Shown: one piece after another, positions 1-62,700 of the stretch | Position numbering within the stretch: position 1 is the first letter of the stretch | How the letters are laid out: each line of letters starts with the position of its first letter | Assembly (NCBI GenBank): GCA_950295325.1 | Contig: OX485804.1 | Span: 18,414,001-18,478,000 of the forward strand | Source: Polytrichum commune | Lineage: Eukaryota > Streptophyta > Polytrichopsida > Polytrichales > Polytrichaceae | Direction of reading: 5' to 3' | Length of the DNA: 64,000 nt | Made by a program: the position numbers and the translations under genes | The notes under the pieces: generated by a model | Told to the model about the DNA's origin: nothing | What the model saw: the letters and a program-made list of their open reading frames with translations, nothing else | Database searches by the model: none

Positions 1-69
1 AACCTTGTACGTTCATTCACATGTCATGTAGTAGCAATTTATGGACGTTATAAATTGGAGAGAAGAAAC

Positions 70-395
70 CCTATATGTTAATGCACATGGTATATAACAG
101 AAATTTAGAAAGGCTAGAAGTCAGGAGGAGAACGCACAGGGTTTATAAGAGCAACTTAGGAGGCGAGAAGTTGGGAGGTAAAACCCTGTATGTTAACGCA
201 CAGGGTTTATAAGAGCAACTTAGGAGGCAAAAAGTTGGGAGGTAAAACCCTATACGTTGACGCACAGGGTTTATAAGAGCAACTTAGGAAGGCCAAAGTT
301 GGGAGGTAAAACCCTGTGCGTTAATGCACAGGGTTTGTAAGAGCAACTTAGGAAGGCCAAAAGTTGGAAGGTGAAACGACTAGGAGAGCCTAAAA
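70..395. repeat. 64-bp tandem repeat carrying palindrome A
   Basis: Four clear units begin with GGGTTTATAAGAGCAAC at 139, 203, 267 and 331, a period of exactly 64 bp; a more diverged unit precedes them from about 70. Each unit junction forms a palindrome whose arm reads AAACCCTGTGCGTT, with small differences per copy, centred near 194, 258 and 322. The units differ by point changes and one or two bases, so the array is not brand new. The same palindrome core recurs outside the array at 823-976 and 1466-1491. Confidence 0.85.
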
Positions 396-822
396 GTAAA
401 ACAAATATCTATTGTATGAATTTAAATCGATGTTCAGAGCGTAGGAGCAAAAATACTATTCAAAACGGGGTTAGAATGCAAGAAATGAGAAATATGTCTA
501 CTCAAGTATTCATGCAATATGTTATAGCAGCTAGAAAATGACACAAAATAGCATAATTTTTTTTTTGCCCCGAAACACAAAATCTACAAGGTGGCCCAAA
601 ACAAGGAAATAGATAGAAGAATGAGAAAAGAAGATGATTTCAAACCAAAACAAAATATAAGAAGAATTTGTAGCTACGGAAATTTAGATAATATAGCATA
701 TTTTTGTTTTTTTTTTGGACCACATTAGCATTTTTTCCAGATTTTACAAGTTTTGGCAAAAATCTACGAATTCTAAACCCTAGACCTAAAACCCCTAAAC
801 AAATTTCAAATTTATGTCTCGG
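396..822. other. AT-rich spacer with telomere-like box
   Basis: No gene is visible. The stretch is A/T rich with T-runs near 559 and 710. Around 771-800 there are degenerate CCCTAAA/AAACCCTA words, which resemble a plant telomere unit or the promoter telo-box. They are too few to call an interstitial telomere. Confidence 0.5.
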
Positions 823-976
823 CCCTGTGCGTTAACGCACAGGGTCTATGCGCTAACGCACAGTGACCTCAAAGTTGCCAGCGCGGACCCTGTGCGTTAA
901 CGTACAGGGTCTAATTGCCTAGCTAGAGGCTTCGCAAAGTTGAGCAAGTAGACCTTGTGCGTTAACGCACAGGGTC
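823..976. repeat. Three palindrome A sites spaced 65 bp apart
   Basis: Near-perfect inverted repeats with arm GACCCTGTGCGTT lie at 823-844, 886-911 and 951-976. Their centres are 65 bp apart, nearly the same ruler as the 64-bp tandem array upstream, although the DNA between the sites is different. A degenerate half-copy lies near 847-864. Conservation of the palindrome and its spacing but not of the linkers suggests binding sites rather than simple sequence duplication; that reading is inference. Confidence 0.8.
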
Positions 977-1046
977 TACGCTGGCAGCTTTCTAGCGGCT
1001 ATACGGGGCCACGAAGAGCCACGCTAAATATGGCTGCAGGGACGAG

Positions 1047-1056
1047 TAATATAAAT
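1047..1056 (+). promoter_or_regulatory. Possible TATA element
   Basis: TAATATAAAT lies between the palindrome A group and the palindrome B array, on the side facing the methyltransferase-like gene. It is a candidate core promoter by sequence only; no transcription start can be seen. Confidence 0.25.
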
Positions 1057-1208
1057 TGCCACACCCCCAAAGCATTCAGTCTTTTTTTTCTCATCTGTCG
1101 GACCTGAGCTCGTCGCTGCAAGCTCTCTCATCTACAGGTGCAGTACAAGGTTTGTTTGCACTTTCGTGATGACGGGGTAATTGCGCATAATCAGGCGTAA
1201 ATTGCGGA

Positions 1209-1426
1209 CAGTTTGGGTCGAACGACCCAAACTGTTTGCCTAGTTTGGGTCGAACGACCCAAACTGTCTACCTAGTTTGGGTCGCTCGACCCAAACCATG
1301 CTCACAGTTTGGGTCGTTCGACCCAAACCATGCTCACAGTTTGGGTCGTTCGACCCAAACTGGCTGTAGGCGGTTTGGGTCGCTCGATCGAAACCGCGTG
1401 GACAGTTTGGGTCGTTCGACCCAAAC
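1209..1426. promoter_or_regulatory. Array of seven palindrome B sites on a 32-bp ruler
   Basis: Seven inverted repeats with arm CAGTTTGGGTCG and a 2-bp centre (AA, CT or TT) start at 1209, 1241, 1273, 1305, 1337, 1371 and 1403. The intervals are 32, 32, 32, 32, 34 and 32 bp, close to three turns of B-DNA. Linkers are only about 6-10 bp and differ in sequence, while the arms are nearly invariant; the sixth copy has compensated outer changes (CGG and CCG) and one arm mismatch. The array lies about 290 bp upstream of the first ATG of the methyltransferase-like gene. Such phasing is typical of cooperative binding sites or iterons; the binding protein is unknown. Confidence 0.75.
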
Positions 1427-1465
1427 CTCGCGTCGAACTGTGGTAGACCTGTAGTTGGACACACA

Positions 1466-1491
1466 GACCCTGTGCGTTAACGCACAGGGTC
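1466..1491. promoter_or_regulatory. Isolated perfect palindrome A
   Basis: A perfect 26-bp palindrome with arm GACCCTGTGCGTT sits between the palindrome B array and the gene. It is the closest palindrome A copy to the gene and matches the 951-976 site except for one base. Confidence 0.8.
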
Positions 1492-1534
1492 TGACCTTGT
1501 AGTTTTGGGGTGAGGGGCCACCCTAATCGTACAA

Positions 1535-1543
1535 TATTTAAAG
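1535..1543 (+). promoter_or_regulatory. Second possible TATA element
   Basis: TATTTAAAG lies about 170 bp before the first coding ATG. Downstream at 1699-1703 is a good intron acceptor (pyrimidine-rich tract ending in TTAG), so the 5' untranslated region may contain an intron and the start of transcription may be here or further upstream. Confidence 0.3.
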
Positions 1544-1713
1544 GTGCAAATGGCAGTGTCTACAATAATTTTTGTCATTCTTCCTTGTGTTCGTGGTATT
1601 CTGTTGTTATTGTTGTTGCTATTGCTATTGTTTTTGTAATGTTATTGCTAATGTGTTGTTACTGGTTTTAGAAATATTTATGAAACTTGTTTCGTTTCTC
1701 TTAGGAGCAATGA

Positions 1714-2431
1714 ATGGATTTGGAGAGAACGACTTCTATTTATACTGATGATGATTCCACAATGCATTCAACTCTAGATCGTCCATATCAACAAGTTCAT
1801 CATTATCAGGACATATCGTCAAATCTTCATACTAAGAAAAAGAAAAAAATAAATGAATCCCTGGATGATTTTGACTCGGATGAAGATAATGATGATGACA
1901 ATAAAACTTATCAAGAGAAAGTGTGGGAGCTTACGAACAAACGAAAGGTTAATTCCACTTCCACAATTTCCTCAATCCGTGCTGGACCTAATGCTCGCTT
2001 GCGTATACCCTTATGTCGCATGGTTCCTATGCCGATTGTGCGTCCTGCTTTGAAGGGTGACATTACTAAATTAGTGGCTGATTTTTTCAATGGTTATCGT
2101 GATGGTGACCGTGTGTTTTATATATTGGCCACCGATTCTAAGGGAAACTTTCAATTCGAGATGATGAGGTTCGCGTATCTTGGAGCCCAAATTGGGCTCA
2201 AGCCAATGTCATGTTTGAATCTCAATTGAATACAGATTTGTCATTGACGTCATACAAGAACAAGATGTTTTTTATATGGGATGGAAATCACAGATTTTTT
2301 GCTTGGAAAAATTATATTGACCGCATATATACCGAAGATTATGAACGTCATGTCTTTGTGGATTCTATCATTTTAGCGCCCGAGCCTGACGATATTTCAA
2401 GTTTGTTGACTGCTATGCATGACATCAACAA
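1714..2431 (+). CDS. Exon 1: basic/acidic N-terminus and ParB-like domain
   Basis: The ATG at 1714 opens a frame with a lysine run and an acidic run (DSDEDNDDD), then IPLCRMVPMPIVRP, which fits the first strand of a ParB-like fold. Near 2158 the frame must shift by one base: the downstream part (SWSPNWAQANVMFE, then MFFIWDGNHRFFAW) is read in another frame. GNHR followed by aromatic residues corresponds to the D-G-[HN]-H-R box of ParB and sulfiredoxin folds. The donor is AA|GTAATG at 2432. An upstream acceptor at 1703 means the true start could lie in an earlier exon. Confidence 0.6.
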
Positions 2432-2531
2432 GTAATGTTCTTACCTATTTTTTTACACTTATTTCTAGTTTATATTTTTTTATTTTCCAAATTATATCAT
2501 CATGAATCTAATCAATTTAATGTTTTTTCAG

Positions 2532-2721
2532 GTCAACCGAAAATTCTCACGTATCCACCAATTTGGTGCATACTTTATATCGGATGCAAAGTATTGGCAC
2601 CATGCCTTTGACTTCCTTCAGAAAGCAACTGGATCCAAAGAGTTATAAACGATGTGAGGAGAAGTCCGTCGAAACTTGGTATTCTTTGACACGACCAATT
2701 TTTTTGGATTACATATACAGT
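2532..2721 (+). CDS. Exon 2 of the ParB-like/methyltransferase-like gene
   Basis: The exon starts after TTTTTTCAG|GTCAACC and joins exon 1 in frame (INK then STENSH). It ends ACAGT|GTATGT with a clean codon boundary. The encoded part includes TSFRKQLDPKSYKRCEEK and ETWYSLTRPIFLDYIYS. I recognise no separate domain; it follows directly on the ParB-like fold. The flanking introns are 100 and 105 bp. Confidence 0.65.
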
Positions 2722-2826
2722 GTATGTTCTTCTACCATTGCTAATATGTGCCTTATGTTTATTCATCTTTATTTTACATTACATCTATATGTACTTATAA
2801 ATATTGACTTTTGGCTGATTTTTCAG

Positions 2827-3440
2827 CAAGAACTTGCTGAGGCTAGCGATATTGCTCTCAACCAGTACAATGAAACTCATCCTCTTGAACGGACATCAGA
2901 CGGAGTTTCAAAAGCAATGTCCGCAGCTGTAAAAAAAAACGTGCAATGTTATCTTCTAGTTTTACGAAACAACTAGCGATTGCCGACATCAACCTTACCT
3001 ATGCTTTCTTTGAAGAAGTTAAGCACCATTGGGGTTCATTTTCGGTGCCTGAAATGCTACAAGAAAAACTTCATCGTGTTGCTATCAGTAATGTGGATGC
3101 AGAAGTCAATGTTGGATGGCTCAAGCTTTGGAATGGCAATAGATTTAACAAAGATGCATTGCATTTCCCGAAATCGCCCCTCTCTGATTCTGCACTTGAT
3201 GATTGGCTATCAAAGTCTACATATTGGGCACAGTTGGAAAAAAAAACTATCGAAGAGCTTCAAAGTATTCTTTCATCTCCTCTTCAGTTGCCTTCAGATG
3301 TGCCTACTCTCTCCGAGTATATCCAAATCTGGAAGTTTGCGGCTTTCAATTCGATATTCTATCGTGAATTCCAAAGCGGAAAAGTTAAAAAACACAACGG
3401 TTGGGATGAGCAACCTAATATTGATCTTGCTATGAAACGT
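2827..3440 (+). CDS. Exon 3, long linker domain with A-run frameshift
   Basis: The acceptor is GATTTTTCAG|CAAGAAC, phase 0 with exon 2. The frame runs through QELAEASDIALNQYNETH to a run of nine A at 2931-2939, after which the open frame is displaced by one base and continues for about 165 residues (FTKQLAIADINLTYAFFEEV, later TLSEYIQIWKFAAFN). A one-base indel in the homopolymer is the simplest reading. I recognise no domain. The donor near 3441 (CGT|GTATTA) does not join the next exon in frame, so this junction is unresolved. Confidence 0.55.
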
Positions 3441-3542
3441 GTATTATACAGATACAACCTAATCTTATTATTTTTTTGATTTTTTTTATTCCATTTGTCA
3501 AATTGTCATGGAATATTTGACTTACAATATTTTTGTGTGTAG

Positions 3543-4167
3543 GTATTTTCGATATGTTTTGATTCCACATAAATTCTTTATAGGGGAACCTCGTTTTTTC
3601 CCAAATTGGCGTGACACTGGTGCAGGAGATTCATGCATGTTCACTACTGAGATTTGTTTGGATTGGTTGCTCCCACACTATGAGGATTGTGGTTGGTATC
3701 TTGATTGTCCTAAGGATGCATGTCCGTCAAGTGAGAAGACAATCCGTCAGATAAATGATGCTAAAAATGTGGATCCTCGTGATACTGCAATTTTGCAGCT
3801 TAAACTTAGAGAGCCAGAACCAAAAGAGACAAAACGTCGTAAGAGGAAACATGTTCCTGAAACCAAAATACAAGATCAATCGGAAATTTCACAACATGAA
3901 GAATTGCTTGTTCTTTCCAATGATTTGGATAAGAATCCACTTGGAGGCGAAAGTTCAAAGTCTGGGTGCGATGTATTGGAATTTCATTACTCCAGCACCT
4001 ATGACGCTATTCATCGTGCGCCAACGGATATTTTGAGAAAAAAATTATTCATACTAAAGAACTTTCTCATGCTCTTGTTTGCTCGATCTACTGCTGTCAA
4101 GAACAAGTCTGAAGGGGTGGATGTAGGCCCTCCTGAGTGGATCCAATGACGGGAATTTATTGAAAAC
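3543..4167 (+). CDS. Exon 4 with basic nuclear-signal-like stretch and in-frame stop
   Basis: The acceptor is GTGTGTAG|GTATTTTC. The product includes FFPNWRDTGAGDSCMFTTEI, a cysteine-containing segment (CGWYLDCPKDAC), then a highly charged part with ETKRRKRKHV that could act as a nuclear signal. It ends GPPEWIQ, an in-frame TGA at 4147-4149, then REFIEN before GTAAGT at 4168. A TGA derived from CGA by C-to-T change at a CpG is a likely origin for the stop. The exon end is in phase with the following exon, which supports the reading through that codon. Confidence 0.55.
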
Positions 4168-4261
4168 GTAAGTATTATTGTTTTGGTATTTTCTCTAATT
4201 ATCTTACTTTCATTTGGGTTTTATTTTGTGTCTTATATTGTGATATGTTGTGGTATTTCAG

Positions 4262-4606
4262 TTCAATGACAATCGCGAATTTTATGTCATAGGAAGTCCG
4301 ACTCCCTTTGCCGTTGACTTGGTTTTTCTCCAATTTCCCGACGGTCTTGACTTCAACATTTCCAATAGACCTGCTGAAATTCCTCTTTGGAATAAATATG
4401 ACAAGAACTGGATGGTTGCAACAATGTCCTTGTGCAAGTCCATCTTGTCTGATGATGGCGTCTTCATAGTATTTTCTGCTATCGATATGCAAACCAAGAA
4501 GATTTTGAATTCAACCTTACACAACGGCAACATGAAAGTTCTTAGGACTTTTATTTGCCTGAATTTGTACATGGTGTTCAAGGATCCGGAGTCTCCAACC
4601 TACACC
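4262..4606 (+). CDS. Exon 5: methyltransferase motif IV region
   Basis: Phase-0 exon between TATTTCAG and GTAAGT. PFAVDLVFLQFPDGLDF aligns in character with the beta-class motif IV strand and loop (normally D-L-I..[DNS]-P-P-[YFW]), but the Pro-Pro core reads QFPD. SLCKSILSDDGVFIVFSA matches the helix and strand that follow (typically a leucine-rich helix, a Gly turn and a beta strand). Loss of the Pro-Pro aromatic core predicts weak or no catalysis unless the alignment is off. Confidence 0.6.
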
Positions 4607-4700
4607 GTAAGTATAACACATCACAATTGTTTCTATTTAATTATTTTGGTGTTATTTGCATTGTATATAGTTTTAACACAATTTACATTTTTTTTTGTAG

Positions 4701-5159
4701 ACTCCAGCATTTATGGCTCATGTCTTGGTAAGGGATTTTACTACCACAAAATACACGAGACAACCAAACTCCACTTTTTTTGGCACTGGATTGAAAAGCA
4801 AAAACTTATTTTTCAACTTTGTGGATGAAAAAAACATGCTTCTTCAAAAATCGGGAAGACCTTGGAGGGGGCCATATCAAAAATCGCCATGTTTTTTTTC
4901 AAGATCTTATTGAATTGTTTACACCATCGAATGGACGCGTTGTTGATTTGACATGTTCCACTGGAGCTTCTATCCTAGCAACACGCGCATGTGGCAGACA
5001 TCTTCTTGCATTTGAGGGTGATAATGACATGTTTGAGCACATATTGAAACCGCTTTTGGAAAACGTTTTGAAAGAGGGGTCATCTAAGGAGAATATACAA
5101 GATCTCACAAAAGAAGATGATAACCTCTCGGATGAGGAGATGCTTGAATTTGAGTGTGA
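4701..5159 (+). CDS. Exon 6: methyltransferase motifs X and I with T-run frameshift
   Basis: Acceptor TTTTTTTTGTAG|ACTCC, phase 0 with exon 5. The first frame runs to PWRGPYQKSP, a motif X-like end. A run of eight T at 4892-4899 then forces a one-base frame change into FFQDLIELFTPSNGRVVDL followed by TCSTGASILATRACGRHLLA and FEGD. That is the layout of motif X (Q-K-P..L) then motif I (normally D-P-F-x-G-x-G-T) and the acidic end of the next strand. The first glycine of motif I is replaced by serine. The donor is GA|GTAAGT at 5160. Confidence 0.6.
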
Positions 5160-5267
5160 GTAAGTTTTAATACAATAAATTTTTATTCAATTCATTCGTT
5201 TCATTCAATTCATTGGTTCATTTTGATTTCTTCACATTATTTACATGTTTCATCGATTTGATTTCAG

Positions 5268-5520
5268 GAATACGATTGGAAAGAGGACATGTCTCCTGTT
5301 TTGGGCACATAGACAATTCCTACGAAGTCCAAGCCGTAGCCCATGTCTCCCATCATATGCCGAGAATGTTGCAATTGCAATGTTGAATCTCGAAGATTCG
5401 GATCCAAATGAAGAATCTTGCTATAGTTCCAAAATCAATTCGCAATGCAAAGGTGCTCGAATATATATAGATGACGAGGCAAAAGATAATTTCATGTCTA
5501 GTGCTACTACTGATGAATAA
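5268..5520 (+). CDS. Exon 7, C-terminal tail
   Basis: Acceptor TTGATTTCAG|GAATACG. Joining with the two leftover bases of exon 6 gives an open frame ending AKDNFMSSATTDE and TAA at 5518-5520; AATAAA-like sequence overlaps the stop. The alternative frame begins EYDWKEDMSPVLG and stops early, so the ancestral frame of the first dozen codons is uncertain. The tail is not recognisable and is rich in Ser and acidic residues. Confidence 0.4.
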
Positions 5521-5666
5521 ATTTTTGGACTTCATGTTGTTTATCCTTCTCAACCCTCTTATTACTAAACCCTAAAATCATCATTTTTAAGGCCACAATT
5601 CCACGGTTATAGGATATTGGTGGCCCTATTACCAAAATTTTCATCTTCCTCACTGCTCATAAGTTA

Positions 5667-5786
5667 CCGCTCATCGCTCACCGCTCATCGCTCACCGCTC
5701 ATCGCTCACCGCTCATCGCTCACCGCTCATCGCTCACCGCTCATCGCTCACCGCTCATCGCTCACCGCTCATCGCTCACCGCTCAT
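5667..5786. repeat. 14-bp minisatellite, about 8.5 copies
   Basis: The unit CCGCTCATCGCTCA repeats head to tail, itself made of two 7-bp halves (CGCTCAT and CGCTCAC) that differ by one base. The copies are essentially identical, so the array is young or kept homogeneous. It lies about 150 bp after the stop of the methyltransferase-like gene. Confidence 0.9.
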
Positions 5787-6780
5787 AAGATAGCACTCCC
5801 CCCGCGAAAGTGAGAGAGTGAGAAGTGAGCCCCCGCGTTTCTTTTGGGGGACTATCCCTTCTCAGCCGTAGATCTAATTATACATACATCTGATGATTGG
5901 CATTTACGGCCGCCACCATCCTAACCGCCATTCTTAAAATCCATATATCCAACGTTCTTTGTTTCCCAACTGTTTGATCCAACGGCCTCAATCTGCTCAA
6001 ACCTCATTTATTTAACATCATCCTTCATTCGTTGCTATCCGACGTTTACAGCTTCATCCGCTCGACACTTCATCCATTTGACATGATCATTTGTTTGTTG
6101 TTGTCCTACGTTTGACATTGTCCTACACTATCCTTCAACCATTCGATGTTGCCCTACGTTGTTTTTCATTCATTCAACGTTGCCATTTGTTGTCCTTCAT
6201 CCATTGTTTAAATTTCTTCATATGAACTAATTGATCTAAATTTAATTCTATCCACTAACTACATTTCTACTTAGACCGCCAACCTTAACCAACCATGAGT
6301 GGTTTGGTTAATTCACGCAAGTAAATGATAACACGCTTCTAAAATATAACAAATAATTGAAAAGGTTCTACGCACATCCACATAATAACTTCTTATTTGT
6401 ATCCGCCTGTAGATTATTCAAGTTTTAACACTAGCTCAATTTGAGATAATACTAGCTAATGTAACCGGTCGAATTCGAGCCCGAATTGGTCCAGACCTAA
6501 TACCAGTCTCTTATACAACTCGCATCCACAAACATATTTCCCAAAATATAGTAGCCACCTATATATTGACTATTTCTAATAACTAACTTCCTTGTTTTTT
6601 TGGATTATTGGCCTTCATTCAAACTGCGAGCGGTTTGAATGACCCACAAGCATCATCTTCTTTGAAAACAAGGACCAAGAAATAAAACACGTATGGAAAG
6701 CTATTTAACACCAACTAGAAAGTATTGACCTTAAAGGTTGACTAAATTAAATGACTTCAAAATTATGGGGCACTAAGAGA
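5787..6780. other. Gene-free AT-rich stretch
   Basis: I see no coding frame, RNA gene or clear repeat. Words such as CATTCGTTG, CATTTG and ACGTTG recur around 6020-6210 (degenerate TTCATYCRTT-like series), which may be a worn short tandem repeat. Confidence 0.5.
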
Positions 6781-11105: not shown

Positions 11106-12065
11106 ATGGCATCACTTGAGAGCAAGGTTGCTAAGGTCATTGACAAGTTCAATGAAGAGAATCTTAACTTTTGAAAATGCAAAATCAAAATGTTGTTGGC
11201 ATTCATGAATTTTTGGAGCATTATGGACACATCCGATGAAGCGCCAACTTCCAATACGGATCCCAAGGTCAAAAAAGAATCCCAAAGGTGCTTCAAGAAG
11301 GCCATGTCCATCATCAGCCTCAACTTGGCGGACAACGAACTCGCGCACATCAAGAGTTGCCAAGGACCGGCAGAGGCATGAAAGATCCTTTGCAACATTA
11401 TCGTTTGTACGAAATGAATCTTACAAAGATGCACAGAGCAGATGAGGCCAACTCGGTGCAATCTCCGATGAAAGATGGTGCGTTCGAGTTTTGGCACTGC
11501 CGCCTCCTCCATTTAAACGTGAAGGATGTTCATACGCTCCAAAATATGGTGAGTGGCATGAATCTTGATAATTTTTTTGCCCCATGTCCTTGTTGTGTTT
11601 GCGAAGCGTGCATTGAAGGCAAACATCATAAGGTTTCATTTTTGAACGAGAGGGGGAGGAGAACAACCAAGCCTTTGGAGATTGTGCGTTCTGACATATA
11701 TGGCCCCATAAGGATCATATCCATAGGCGGTGCAAGGTATTTCGTGACCTTCATTCATGATTTCTTGAGGAAGGTGTGGTATATGCGTTCAAGTCCAAAA
11801 AGAAGTGTTTTGAGAGGTTTAAGGACTTCAAAGCATTTGTAAAAATGCAATCGGAGCATAAAATCAAGGTGTTTTGGTTGGACAATGATGAGGAGTTCAT
11901 TTCCAAGGCATTCAGCAGTTTTTGAAGGACTATGGCATTAAGAAACAAATGTCCACCCCGTATAGGCCTCAACAAAATGGAATAGCAAAGCATTCAAATA
12001 TCACCATTGTGGAATTGATAAGAAACATACTTCATGCTTAAAACTTGCATAAATTATTTTGGATA
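11106..12065 (+). mobile_element. Ty1/copia retrotransposon remnant (gag start, pre-integrase, integrase)
   Basis: A gag-like start (MASLESKVAKVIDKFNEEN) leads to ADNELAHIKSCQGPAEA, typical of the copia gag region. It then jumps to FWHCRLLHLN with CCVCEACIEGKHHK, the His/Cys zinc-binding pre-integrase part, so protease is deleted. The integrase core follows: SDIYGP with the first acidic residue, GGARYFVTFIHDF, WLDNDEEFISKAF with the second, then PQQNGIAKHS, where the third catalytic residue (normally Glu after Ala) is Lys. Frame changes occur near 11780 and 11920, and tryptophan codons have become TGA at about 11174 and 11380. Reverse transcriptase and RNase H are absent. The element is dead. 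Confidence 0.85.
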
Positions 12066-13889: not shown

Positions 13890-14595
13890 AATTTGTAGTT
13901 AAGAAGAAGAAAAGTTTCTTTACGGATCGCAACAAACAAGTAAGGCATGAATGGACAAAAAACCACAAGGATTGGACATAGGAGCAATGAAACAAAGTTA
14001 TATTATCATGTGATAGTAAATTCAATATTGTGATGTTTGATGGTCAAGAATGGTGTTGGAAAAGGCCTAGTGAACCTCTAAACAATCTTGTGGTTAGTAA
14101 GACTATGAAGCATGGAGGAAAGAGCATCATGATTTGGGGTTGCATGAGTTGGGAAGGCATTGGAGAGCTTACCTTAATCAAAGGAAAATGGAATATTGAG
14201 CATTATCATAGTATCTTACAAAACATCATGAGCTTGTTAGTTGCGCAGTTTGGAAAAGTAGTAGAGGAGTGGGTGTTTGAACATGATAATGACCCAAAAC
14301 ATACGAGCAGGTCAACATTCAAATGGTTCAACGATCATGTAATCACAATACCTCCATGGAGTCCACAATCCCCTTACATGAATCCTATTGAACACCTTTG
14401 GACGAAGTGGATCGGTGCCTCCGACTCCATAAAGTCCTCCCCGCTAGCAAGGATGACCTTTGAAGAAGTTGCATGAGGAATGGAACAACATTGAGGTGGA
14501 AATCATAGAGAAGCGGGTGACATCAATGCCCAACAACGTGCATGCATTGTTGAAGGCAAAAGGAGGGCACACCAGATTATATCCAAGTAGCATAG
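13890..14595 (+). mobile_element. Tc1-like DD34E transposase relic
   Basis: A worn N-terminal part before 14030 (RHEWTKNHKDWT, then DSKFNIVMFDGQEWCWKR) runs into a clear catalytic domain: KHGGKSIMIWGCMSWEGIGE, EHDNDPKHTS, then PPWSPQSPYMNPIEHLW. Counting from the Asp of DNDPKH to the Glu of NPIEHLW leaves 34 residues between, the DD34E signature of Tc1. A stop and a frame change near 14460 precede the C-terminal end (HEEWNNIEVEIIEKRV to KAKGGHTRL). The DNA-binding half is lost or unrecognisable and I could not find convincing terminal repeats. Non-functional. Confidence 0.85.
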
Positions 14596-57650: not shown

Positions 57651-59109
57651 CCTGTCGGTGTGTGTGTATCCTCCCAGCTAGCTTCCTTAATCTTCCTTGG
57701 ATGGGCTGGGAGGACTTTGGTCCCCCTTTGGTCACGAGTTTCTAGGTATTCGCAACAGCTGCCAATCGGTGGCGGAGGAGACGAAGAAGAAGAAGAAGAA
57801 GAAGTGAGTGGTCGGAGTCCGTTTGCCAGCTTCCTGCGGGTAGGGAGGAGGGAGGGAGAGTTTGGAGGAGTAACGAACATGATTGTTTTTTGTGAGAGCA
57901 TTGATCTCGTGAGTAAATCGGATGTATATGAGTAGACTTCTTCTTCTTCACTCAAAACAGGAGGCAAGCCTTCTTGCATCAAGATTAGGCTAAGGTTCGG
58001 GTGTCGATGGTGATGCTTAATCGTGTTTACCAAGTCTCTGGGGGTACACCAGATTGACCGCACTATTGTAATTCTTATTATTGTGGTGATGGTGGTTCTT
58101 GGGCTCTGTGTTGTGGAGCTGCGGGGATTAGGTAGTGTTTGGAGGTCAATTTGCAACACATCGCATCATGGGCACTGATTACCCCGCTCGAGGTAGCTGG
58201 ATGATCGGAGTCCCACAGAGTAAGTAGGTCGACCAGCAATTGATTGTGTGAACCACAGCTACTTGGATACTAAAAATATTGAATGAGTGGAGTCGAGGGA
58301 ATATGTCGGAGGGACAGGAGCCTGGGGGGCTTCTTCAGCAGCAGGTGGTGGGATCGGCAGCATGGGTGCCAGATACTCGACCAAAATGTTACTACTCATG
58401 GCAGGATCGGTTTTCACGGCTGCCGTTTATTTGGTGCCCTAACCACTAGATTTCCACATGCATGGATTGCAGGAATTAATAGATCCTTAGAGACAGAGAG
58501 TGAGGCTGGTTATTGGGTGCATGGAAGTAGAAGTGGGGGGTTCTGATGATTTCGCTCTATGGAAATGCCATAGTGAGAAGGTTATTAATACTTTTCTGCT
58601 GAGGGTTAGGAACGAGGGATCGCAGGAACAGATTCTTAGAGAGAGCGTGAGAGAGAGAGAGAGAGAGAGAGGCTGGATATTGGGTGCCTGGAAGTAGTAG
58701 TTTAGTTCTCACTATGGAATGCCATAGAAAGAATAATATTTTTCAGCTGAGGGACGCTAGACTTTTATTCTGCGAAGGAGGGCAACCGTCAACTGTTGTT
58801 TGATCCAAAGTCATGACATCCTCCATCCAGCCGAGCCATGAGAATACTATTAATAAATTAGTTTGACAATGAAGAGAAGGTGCCACAGTAGAGTCGCTCC
58901 TGAGGATATACAGTAGTCGGAGGCAGGTTATAAGTAGATCATTTAACTTAACTTAGTTTTACTAAGTTGGGTAGGCTCACTCATGGTATGTATGGCATGT
59001 GCCTAAGAGACGACTTTTTCCGTGAAATTGAGCTACTACTGGCCGACCGAGGTCACGTAATTGGGTAGCCTCGTAACTGGGTAACTGGGTTGGGTGATTG
59101 GCCGAGTGC
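57651..59109 (+). other. Probable 5' untranslated region with or without intron
   Basis: Contains GAA units at 57782-57803 and a GA run at about 58648-58672. A partial direct duplication is visible: GTGAGGCTGGTTATTGGGTG with TGGAAGTAG near 58500 against GAGGCTGGATATTGGGTGCC near 58669. No conserved coding frame; exon boundaries cannot be fixed. Confidence 0.4.
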
Positions 59110-59750
59110 ATGGGCGCAATGGCGGCGGCAGCAGGCATCACATCCCCTGCCCGGGTGAGGTTGACGGATTTGGTTGCCACCGACGGGATGCCCTCGGAGA
59201 ACTACAAACATGCTGTGGCCGCACTTTCCCAGTCGCTCCGAAACTTCAATGCAGCCATCATCCAAGTCCCTCACGCGGACGATGTGCTGTTGAGATGTGT
59301 CCTGGACTCCGTCCGGATGTTTTTCCATAAGAAAACAGCAATTCTGCAGGGTGCATCAGATTCGGCATCCGAAGCAGCAGCATCAGCAGCAGCAGCAGCA
59401 GCAGGAGCAGGAATAATCGGTGCTGAAGACCCCCAAAGTTGGAACCGCACAGCGGGTTATTACGCTGAGCCCCAGCATGCAAGAGAGACATATGACTTCC
59501 GGCCAGGGAGGATGATTCATAATGAAGCTGGGGCAGCAGCAGCAGCAGCATCAAGTGTTTCGTCAGAATTGCCACCTGCAGGGTTGCCTGAGGTTTTTGC
59601 TGTTCTAGGAAGTGCCTCTCGAACCATTTTGGACGCAATCGGAAGCTCCCTGGATCTGCGGAGCTACTGGTGGACGGATTTGTTGGACAATGTGCCATTG
59701 AAGGCCGGGGAAATCTCCACTTCTGTCTTGTCAACGTGCTGTCAGAACAG
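59110..59750 (+). CDS. Oxygenase-like gene, exon 1
   Basis: ATG at 59110 (MGAMAAAAGI) or 59119; no better in-frame ATG lies upstream. The frame contains VRLTDLVATDGMPSENYKHA, an N-terminal part like that of plant oxygenases, then Ala-rich tracts from GCA repeats, AVLGSASRTILDAIGSSLDL and SYWWTDLLDN. The donor is AACAG|GTATGA at 59751, leaving two bases of a codon. The Ala tracts (from GCAGCA repeats at about 59385-59400 and 59535-59550) are probably variable linkers. Confidence 0.75.
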
Positions 59751-62700
59751 GTATGACATTTACTACGTGATATCCGGATGTGTGCAAAATCCTCGCTAGT
59801 TGATGAAATCGATTGTGGGTTGAGTCGATGATCATTGTCGCCAACTAAGAAGTTTCGGCATTCTCATTTATGGGTGTCCACCTTGCCAAGTCTACCAATG
59901 GACGCCAATGTGAGTGCTATTTCTTAGGAAACCTCTGCTTTAACAACTAACTGACTTCAGCGCCCAAAGTGTAATATTTTTTTGATTTTCTGAAAGAAGT
60001 GCCAGTACATCTATCAATGTCATGCTTCTTTGCGTAAAAGAACTCGAACGAGCGAAAACTTCGAGGGTTCCATCAGCCTCCTATTGTTTTTTATCCTTTT
60101 AGTACATGGCAGAAAGTTCCAACATCCTTTTATCAGCTAGATGCAGTTACCACATAGTACAGTATTCATGCAAAGGTGGATTTATGGAAAAATCATGAAG
60201 CTCGTGCGTTTGTGCAGACCTGGTGCTCACCAGTCAGCCACCACATTGGCAGGAGAGCAAGCCGCGGCCCTGCCCATCTACGAAGAGGAAGTAGACAAAG
60301 GGCTGCTGACATTACTTAAATCTGACAAGCCAGGCCTCCAAATACGAGATTTGCAGGGCCGCTGGATGGTTGTGGATGCTGACTTAGGTCCTCAAGACAT
60401 GGTTCTGTTCACCGGACTTTCACTTTACCAGACAACTGGGGGTTATCTCAGTCCCTCTCTCCATCGAACAGACATAAACACCAATCTTGGTCAACAAGCA
60501 GCACAGAGCTCCATGCCGTATGGACGTTGCACTGTGGCTTTCAAGCTGATGCCTCGTGCATCTGCCATTCTGCATTGTGCAGCCATGAGTGCTGCAGGGC
60601 ATCATCTGGGAGGTCCATTTCAGCAGCCGGTGCCAGTTCATGAATTCATGCAGAGGTCACATCCCACGGACCAGCTTGTCATGAGTCGACCAGGAGTTCC
60701 TACATTCTCCTTCTCAGCACCGGTCGAAGGTGAGGCGCTCTACTTGCTTCGGATCATTCCAAAACTTATGATGTATGATTACATTACCAGTGCAGCTTTC
60801 ATTGTGTTCCAGCTAGTATCACCAACGTCTTAAATCTTTACAATCTTTGAGGGCGCTGCTTTTCGCAGCAAAAAATATTTAGAAAATGAAATCGCTAAAA
60901 ACTACGTGTCCCAGCTCTGTTAATCAAGCCTGCGGCCTTCATTGGCAAAGTGGGGCGTTACTGGGTAGTTAGCCTCTGCACATTCTTGCTTCATGTAAAT
61001 TCATACAGTTGCAATATTGAGAGTGCATTGGAGTGATATCAAAAAGCATGGGTACACCGTTTAGATTTTATTCTGCATCAAAGGTGAGGCTCTCTGCTTG
61101 CTTCACATTTCTGCAATGATGTATGATGACATTACCACTGCTACTTTCATTGTATTTCTAGTATCACCAACATCTGCACATTCTTGCTTCATGTATTCCT
61201 ACTGCGTACAGTTGCAATATTAAGAGTACATTATGCACTGGAGTGATTCTATAAATCATGGTTACACCGTTAATGGTTTATTGTATATCGAAGGTGAGGC
61301 TCTCAACTTGCTTCAGATCATTGCAACAATGATGCATGATAACATTACCATGTTGCAGTCATTTCTTTCCTAGTATCACCAACGTGTGCACATTCTTGCT
61401 TCATGTAAATTCCTACGTCATATAACAGTTGCAATATGGAGAGTGCATTCTGCATTGGAGCGATGTTATAAAGCATGGCACCGTTAAAGAGTTTATTGTG
61501 TTCACTGCATTTCTGGAAGAGCTGTTGTTTGTAAAGATGTAGGTTGGACCCAGATCCTCTTAAAAACTTAATCCATTTTGCTGGGATCATTATAACTGAT
61601 CCATGAGTTCCTACTGCAATTACAGCAGCAGCAGTTTATCAGCTCCCTGCGGCCACAACTCAATTGAAGGCGACGATGAAGCGGAAGAAACAAGTGTCTC
61701 GGGGAAAACCGCTTGCGCCTTCGAAGCGGTTACGCCTCGAAGCTCAACGTGTCCTCAAGGAGAGAGTTCAAGAGATTGCAGACAACAAGGGACTGAAGAT
61801 ACGGTATTGCAATTTAAAGGAATGTGAAGAGCAGCATTTGAATGCCATGGACAGTCCTTGTGCTGCCATGAGAGCAGAGATGGAGTGGCCTGCGGGTGTT
61901 CCATTTGTTCATCCCCATGACTTGCCCAACAAAGCAAAACAGGCCTTCTTGGAAGCATATGAGCCTGGGTGGACAGCTGCTCAGGACGGTGACATACAAA
62001 TGATAGATCAATCAGGCCAAGCCCAACAAGGGCAGATGCTTGCTTGTAAGATTCTGAGCTTCTTGTCATGTGGTCATGTTCTGGGGTGACCGTAACATAC
62101 TGTATTGCATTGGTACTCTGAGGATTGTTTTTTCTTGTTTTTCTTCCAGGACTTATGCGGAGTTATCCTCTAACTCAGCATGACTTTTGGTTGGGATTTG
62201 GTTGTTTGTTTTGCATACAATACCATCCATGTTCGGTAAGTTTCCGGTTTGATAGAAGAACATTTTATATCGGGTCTTGAGGGTCACTTTCATTTTGGCA
62301 TGTCAAGAGGAGCTGAAATGAGTCTGGCCAGGCTCAAAGTACTGAAATAAGTTGCTCTTAACTCAAATGCAGACACTACCTTTGAGCACGCACCACAAGT
62401 GGAAAGAAATTTCTGATTTTTTATGCAAAACAACCAACGGAAAATCGTCATAGGGGACCAACTCTCGATGAAAGTTCCATTCAGTTAAAGGATAACTCTA
62501 ATAAACTTTCTGCAATTTCAGCTTTGAATACATATAACAGCCAAATTGGTATATCTAGTCTGTCCACCTCTGTGGCTCACTATATTCCTGTCAACCATCA
62601 TACTACGCCACTCTCTTTTGCAATTATGGCAGTGAAAGCCACCTGTCTGATCTACTTCTTACCCCAATACTGTTTGTCAAACACTAACTGGGCTAAGAGG

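Follow-up and report, generated by a model that had tools for sequence, protein, structure and literature searches.

A putative ParB-like and methyltransferase-derived accessory gene without a catalytic motif in a MULE-like DNA transposon of the moss Polytrichum commune

Accessory genes that join a ParB-like domain to a methyltransferase are already published, according to the available text of those reports, for transposons of brown, green, and red algae. The Sola1-1_Ec32 element of Ectocarpus encodes, on the strand opposite its transposase, a 1,104-residue ParB-like plus methyltransferase protein (PMC12477816, in its available part), and because that protein has been described, the kind is already known. 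We analyzed a 64,000-nucleotide window of Polytrichum commune (assembly GCA_950295325.1, contig OX485804.1, forward-strand positions 18,414,001 to 18,478,000), for which a preliminary description had proposed, at 1714–5520, a ParB-like domain fused to a permuted DNA methyltransferase in a plant-type gene. We found that this gene is almost certainly a decayed copy of the accessory gene of a DNA transposon, which we term MULE-like after the Mutator-like elements (MULEs). Sola1-1_Ec32 is a Sola1 element of 21.5 kb, whereas the moss element has 10-bp duplications and an unclassified transposase; the Ectocarpus enzyme is predicted to make N4-methylcytosine or N6-methyladenine (4mC or 6mA), whereas the moss protein is without the catalytic motif; and the moss element contains palindrome arrays, whereas the available text on Sola1-1_Ec32 mentions none. 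What this case adds is its MULE-like setting in a plant-like genome, the absence of the catalytic motif, and the arrays of palindromes.

Further precedents come from the available portions of several other reports. VANDAL21 (Hiun) of Arabidopsis, with its VANC protein, is like the moss element a DNA transposon with extra genes and non-coding motif arrays, which in VANDAL21 are tandem arrays in introns and upstream regions, including upstream of the transposase (PMC5735166, PMC10398659), and in both systems motif and protein vary between families. The VANDAL21 motif YAGTATTAY, however, is non-palindromic and arrayed in one orientation, whereas the moss motifs are palindromes; and anti-silencing has been shown for VANC, whereas for the moss protein it would be a proposed role. 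Retrotransposons of Symbiodinium and Klebsormidium are also mobile carriers of a DNA-methyltransferase-type gene (PMC5890265), but theirs encodes a C5 cytosine enzyme, and the moss domain is of the amino-methyltransferase type and sits in a DNA transposon. The bdelloid rotifer gene N4CMT likewise derives from prokaryotic amino-methyltransferases, although, unlike the moss gene, it belongs to the host, encodes a chromodomain, and has an active SPPY motif (PMC8885841). Bacterial and phage ParB-methylases of the Bce_0392 type (cited in PMC5512222) have a ParB-like domain fused to a methylase, as here, but Bce_0392 is a prokaryotic adenine methylase with a nicking ParB domain. Our literature search, by title and beginning of the abstract and with most subscription journals outside its coverage, showed among the entries listed no land-plant case of a ParB plus methyltransferase transposon. 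N4 cytosine methylation has reportedly been described, in a preprint, from Marchantia sperm.

The window holds the right part of the element (Table 1), and its left end and divergent transposase gene sit upstream. We searched the whole assembly (407.8 Mb in 64 contigs, seven of them 42–78 Mb long) and found four complete copies of 11,277–11,935 bp, all of which start with GAGGGAAGCTATCTTATGAGCG and finish with CGCTCATAAGATAGCACTCCCC, have related inverted ends, and are flanked by perfect 10-bp target site duplications, each different (CCGCGAAAGT, ATTTGCATTC, GTTCAAACAT, and ATTACTAGGG). Homology stops at one common point in 29 of 30 loci carrying exon 6: 27 end in GATAGCACTCCCC, L022 and L032 are slightly different, and L010 is the one locus without the search string. 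The right-end pattern, with up to two mismatches, occurs 158 and 164 times on the two strands of the genome (control, 0). Exon 6 itself gave 771 genome candidates, of which 150 matches were scored (the window copy counted and a few loci split in two pieces), and many of these are 95–99% identical. The window element has an expanded subterminal 14-bp repeat, with 8.6 copies, more than in most other right ends that we compared.

The left half of the element contains long minus-strand reading frames, stretches of which we take to resemble a transposase catalytic core. These frames match a SWIM zinc finger weakly (E 0.02; 14.8 bits against a cut-off of 19.6). For the MULE domain PF10551, hmmscan gave no match in the transposase pieces at E up to 5 or 10, and the 142 genome matches to PF10551 include none inside the four complete elements; the profile libraries searched left the transposase unclassified. 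Sola1 elements make 4-bp target site duplications, and we rejected membership in Sola1 because the duplication here has the wrong length. The 10-bp duplications of all four complete copies fall within the 8–11 bp range of MULEs (available part of PMC6446971), yet because PF10551 fails to recognize the transposase we use the term MULE-like and stop short of classing the element as a MULE. A divergent transposase exon lies upstream of 89 of the 118 gene copies checked (from the 150 scored), where 0.4 would be expected at random; this pairing used 150 scored matches among 2,418 transposase-exon candidates, the two exons are 5.9–14.8 kb apart (median, 9.7 kb), and no upstream transposase exon is on the same strand. 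The inverted ends and duplications of the four complete copies, together with this pairing, bear out the earlier suggestion that the gene is transposon-borne. An endogenous virus was rejected on the basis of the terminal repeats, target duplications, and transposase-like gene (no systematic viral search was made), and a scan of IMG/VR with the exon-6 alignment A1 gave no relative. A loose first screen gave more candidates for the transposase exon (2,418) than for the accessory gene (771), which may point to sister families that have no accessory gene or carry other cargo. Two irregular copies were also noted: in the C2_54M element (L042+L036), at positions 2201–2760, the second transposase exon has a partial duplication of its beginning, with palindrome B sites between the two copies, and C5:23672451-23681914 (9,464 bp), which is bounded on each side by an exact right-type end and contains two oppositely oriented transposase-exon matches, is possibly a rearranged or composite copy.

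The seven exons proposed at 1714–5520 are present and recur in the same layout in the four other copies that we read across the gene (L035–L038). Introns bounded by GT and AG hold for five of the six in the window copy; the exception, intron 3, starts with AT at 3452, and intron 4 of copy L035 ends in AA rather than AG. The idea of a working gene at this locus did not survive comparison with the other copies, since the window copy has three 1-bp indels, a stop, and a lost splice donor (Table 1); it also has an in-frame 15-bp deletion near 3793. L038 is the least damaged of the five, with one internal stop, and we infer an accessory protein of about 1,074 residues.

Exons 5 and 6 are very probably methyltransferase-derived, as judged by several searches. 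The spliced exons of L038 matched PF01555 (N6_N4_Mtase) with E 3.5e-5 over profile positions 30–218 of 221, in permuted order, at 24.3 bits, just below the curated cut-off of 26.7, and the whole protein, in place of this trimmed stretch, matched with E 0.008. PHROG_67 ("DNA methyltransferase") matched the spliced exons with E 9.1e-7; weak tblastn matches to phages (best E 0.02) carry a methylase or methyltransferase annotation in 51 of the 60 rows listed from 74 records; and a single-sequence search of the PDB weakly aligned the motif X to motif I stretch with DpnA-type methyltransferases (E 0.5–0.6), while the exon-6 alignment A1 gave no match there. Motif IV was readable in 12 copies (the window copy, L035–L038, L044, L046–L049, L051, and L052) and unreadable in L043, L045, L050, L053, and L054. 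These copies span two subfamilies, and in none of the 12 does the position contain the catalytic motif (D/N/S)PP(Y/W/F): group 1 has LQFPDG or close variants, and group 2 has TDI(N/Y)DG. The order noted earlier, with the motif IV position before motif I, is confirmed (exon 5 then exon 6, as in the beta class), while a DPPY-type motif IV is not, its place being taken by LQFPDG. The accessory protein is probably non-catalytic.

The assignment of the first half is less firm, although exon 1 seems likely to encode a ParB-like domain. The WDGNHRFFAW box was found in exon 1, and the order of elements and the DGNHR core resemble Escherichia coli YbdM (DGFHR; IVDGFHRHEIG) at the motif level. DGNHR is intact in the window copy, L036, L037, L038, L044, and L047 and altered in L035, L043, L046, L049, L050, L051, and L054. 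Scans of Pfam, PHROG, and the PDB gave no profile match for the stretch; a PDB search with its alignment, A2, returned one chance match (E 0.29), and tblastn against phages returned 16 weak records, none named ParB. Of the fusion that had been proposed, then, the methyltransferase half is supported by PF01555 and PHROG_67, and the ParB half agrees at the motif level without profile support. Elsewhere in the assembly, matches to ParB_N (PF02195) occur only on C12 and C23, in frames of 301–501 codons, and on none of the seven large contigs; they are perhaps bacterial contamination.

Comparing L038 with four group-2 copies over 585–873 codons, we obtained pS of 0.71–0.74, which is near saturation, and pN of 0.38–0.40; pN well under pS between the groups is consistent with past purifying selection. 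Against the nearer copies L047, L048, L049, L051, and L052, corrected dN/dS for L038 was about 0.4–0.6. These estimates are raised by decay after insertion and by some translated intron in the alignments. Among the private substitutions of five copies, C-to-T and G-to-A changes make up 42/96, 37/73, 30/40, 20/34, and 21/30, as expected if the copies were cytosine-methylated; contrary to this signal, the observed/expected CpG ratio is higher in the elements (0.73–0.78) than in the whole window (0.53). At the group-2 locus L134+L043+L135, the left end is one mismatch from that of group 1 and the transposase exon is 78–84% identical to group 1, and the accessory proteins of the two groups share about 26–46% identity by segment. 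The group-2 locus L132+L044+L133 has a related right end, and no transposase match was found within it. If L134+L043+L135 is one element, the accessory gene and the palindrome change more rapidly than the transposase does, a pattern that would resemble VANC and its targets as far as the available text describes them (PMC5735166); the locus may instead contain a nested element.

Two palindromes are arrayed in the group-1 elements. Palindrome A, a perfect palindrome of 22–24 bp, lies in the intergenic region between the accessory gene and the transposase gene, with a spacing of 64–65 bp in 26 of 46 intervals over four elements. Palindrome B, with a variable central dinucleotide and mostly 32-bp steps, is found in the same region and additionally between the transposase exons, so that the layout of arrays in a transposon with an accessory gene is of the VANDAL type. 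We counted 411 exact copies of the 24-bp form of A in the genome (0 for the reversed control); among the 50 sites listed, all on C1, 46 are found no more than 9 kb upstream of a gene copy, in a zone that makes up about 0.4% of C1 at most. Palindrome A is present in each of the four group-1 elements, and A' (GGTAGGGCGTTAACGCCCTACC) in none of them; A' occurs in the group-2 loci L043–L046, where A and B are absent. With up to six mismatches there are 8, 7, 5, and 2 units of A' in L043, L044, L045, and L046, respectively, many at steps of about 104–119 bp, and the two exact genome copies lie within or next to the L043 element. The core GCGTTAACGC is common to A and A', which differ at positions 1, 2, 3, 4, and 6 and at the exact mirror positions; such mirrored changes in two perfect palindromes are as expected for a dimeric binding site under selection, and tandem duplication would help a changed unit to spread. 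A second palindrome suspected in group 2 is poorly supported.

We propose that a fusion of ParB-like and amino-methyltransferase domains, carried in a MULE-like DNA transposon of 11.3–11.9 kb, may have lost methylation, and that the accessory protein would bind the non-coding palindromes of its own element as a dimer, in the shared promoter region and between the transposase exons. Binding would keep the element expressed against host silencing, or would regulate the transposase, like VANC of VANDAL elements. Judging from the sequences, the likely function is regulation of the protein's own element through DNA binding and not methylation. That the protein acts on these palindromes falls just short of an even chance in our estimate, and we put the entire chain, a transposon-borne, non-catalytic ParB/methyltransferase-derived regulator of its own element, at a probability of roughly 0.42. 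It is unlikely, though conceivable, that within the transposon a ParB-methyltransferase fusion of prokaryotic type has become a sequence-specific, non-catalytic reader of DNA with dyad sites ~32 or 64 bp apart (for A', often ~104–119 bp), protein and site diversifying together; if so, the VANC strategy would have been invented independently from a methylating ancestor. Because the protein was kept, the catalytic motif is missing in both subfamilies, and the candidate sites differ with the protein, the choice between marking and binding is directly testable. The system could extend anti-silencing beyond VANC, and it could show eukaryotic use of a catalytically dead prokaryotic-type methyltransferase.

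Several results weigh against a self-regulating DNA-binding protein. The transposase could bind the palindromes instead. All five copies read across the accessory gene are broken, so present-day activity cannot be claimed. Spliced group-2 pieces, taken from broken copies, gave no methyltransferase or ParB match in family scans. When hhalign was used to compare the ParB-like stretch with an alignment of YbdM and 20 of 71 viral-contig relatives (L125 was dropped for stops in its translation), the probability was 0.3%. The profile searches and structure prediction that the preliminary description had named as checks gave mixed returns: methyltransferase families were found and ParB families were not, and AlphaFold models were of low confidence (mean predicted local distance difference test, pLDDT, of 44.9 for exon 1; pLDDT 32.1 for exon 6). 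No A' unit was seen in the ~0.4 kb examined upstream of the gene in L054, the fifth group-2 locus, and of the older group-1-like copies L050 has three A-like units and L047, L049, and L051, with short upstream stretches, show none. Finally, exact matches to B number 9,231 in the genome (control, 0), and 77 of the 100 rows listed fall in three blocks, each over 37 kb away from any scored gene copy, so B does not belong to the accessory protein alone. The B blocks are about 10 kb long (for example, C1:616088-626110) and show other periods (78 and 64 bp), and the 3.4-kb stretch L142 from a C1 block has little in common with the element except the palindromes.

The distribution of B gives some weight to the possibility that the palindromes are bound by the transposase or a host factor and that the accessory protein does something else, for instance nicking DNA at excision by means of a ParB-like nuclease domain. 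The arrays lie in the region common to both genes and between the transposase exons, B is present in unrelated repeats, and a ParB-methylase from Bacillus reportedly acts as a nicking nuclease (cited in PMC5512222, available part); at L134+L043+L135, however, the transposase exon stayed similar while the accessory protein and palindrome diverged, which argues against the transposase as binder, and we consider the whole alternative rather unlikely. An active methyltransferase that deposits 4mC or 6mA on the element encoding it, the role suggested for the algal accessory proteins, is in our view quite improbable. It would fit the same two domains, divergent arrangement, and similar length of the Sola1-1_Ec32 protein (1,104 residues; PMC12477816, available part) and the recognizable motif X and motif I regions, but across both subfamilies all 12 readable copies have LQFPDG-type sequence or TDI(N/Y)DG at the motif IV position, and according to the available text on rotifer N4CMT, changing SPPY to APPA abolishes activity (PMC8885841).

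A functionless passenger, captured as genes are in Pack-MULEs, would explain why all five copies are broken and why loose transposase-exon candidates exceed gene candidates; it is improbable given that the protein was kept across both subfamilies with pN well under pS and that the divergent pair persists in 89 of 118 copies. Spliceosomal-type introns alongside prokaryote-like domains would fit an enzyme gained by horizontal transfer and turned into a nuclear gene of a eukaryote, as the preliminary description inferred. For the window locus this is contradicted by a broken copy within a transposon with target duplications and by 150 scored exon-6 matches, which rule out a single-copy nuclear gene; copies of the family are numerous and scattered, none of the readable ones has the catalytic motif, and we judge that explanation extremely improbable.

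Table 1. Features of the transposon and its accessory gene, in window coordinates.
Feature	Position	Strand	Remarks
Right part of 11,374-bp DNA transposon	1..5801	+	Left end C2:18408428 = window ~-5572
Termini of window element			Left GAGGGAAGCTATCTTATGAGCG, right CGCTCATAAGATAGCACTCCCC; 10-bp duplication CCGCGAAAGT flanks both sides
Palindrome A array (CCCTGTGCGTTAACGCACAGGG)	69..1489		9 units with <=6/22 mismatches, 2 exact
Palindrome B array (GTTTGGGTCGNNCGACCCAAAC)	1211..1426		7 units, 6 exact, spacing 32 or 34 bp
Exon 1: acidic N-terminus and putative ParB-like stretch with DGNHR box	1714..2431	+	1-bp deletion ~2158
Exon 2	2532..2721	+
Exon 3	2827..3451	+	1-bp deletion ~2930; next splice donor AT, not GT
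Exon 4	3543..4167	+	TGA at 4147-4149; TGG in four other copies
Exon 5: methyltransferase-like domain	4262..4606	+	LQFPDG at motif IV position
Exon 6: methyltransferase-like, motif X (FFQDLIELF) and motif I (VVDLTCSTGA) regions	4701..5159	+	1-bp insertion ~4892
Exon 7	5268..5520	+	TAA at end
Subterminal tandem repeat ACCGCTCATCGCTC	5666..5786	+	8.6 copies
Right terminal inverted repeat CCGCTCATAAGATAGCACTCCCC	5779..5801	-
10-bp target site duplication CCGCGAAAGT	5802..5811	+

Outside the element, the window contains three plus-strand open frames of 160–233 codons at 59098–62086, which have no Pfam match at E up to 0.01 and are perhaps host-gene exons. A frame at 13991–14473 matches DDE_3 below the cut-off (E 7.1e-5) and appears Tc1-like. 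At 11240–11839 lies a fragment of a copia-type retrotransposon with a GAG-pre-integrase domain (Pfam E 2.2e-10).

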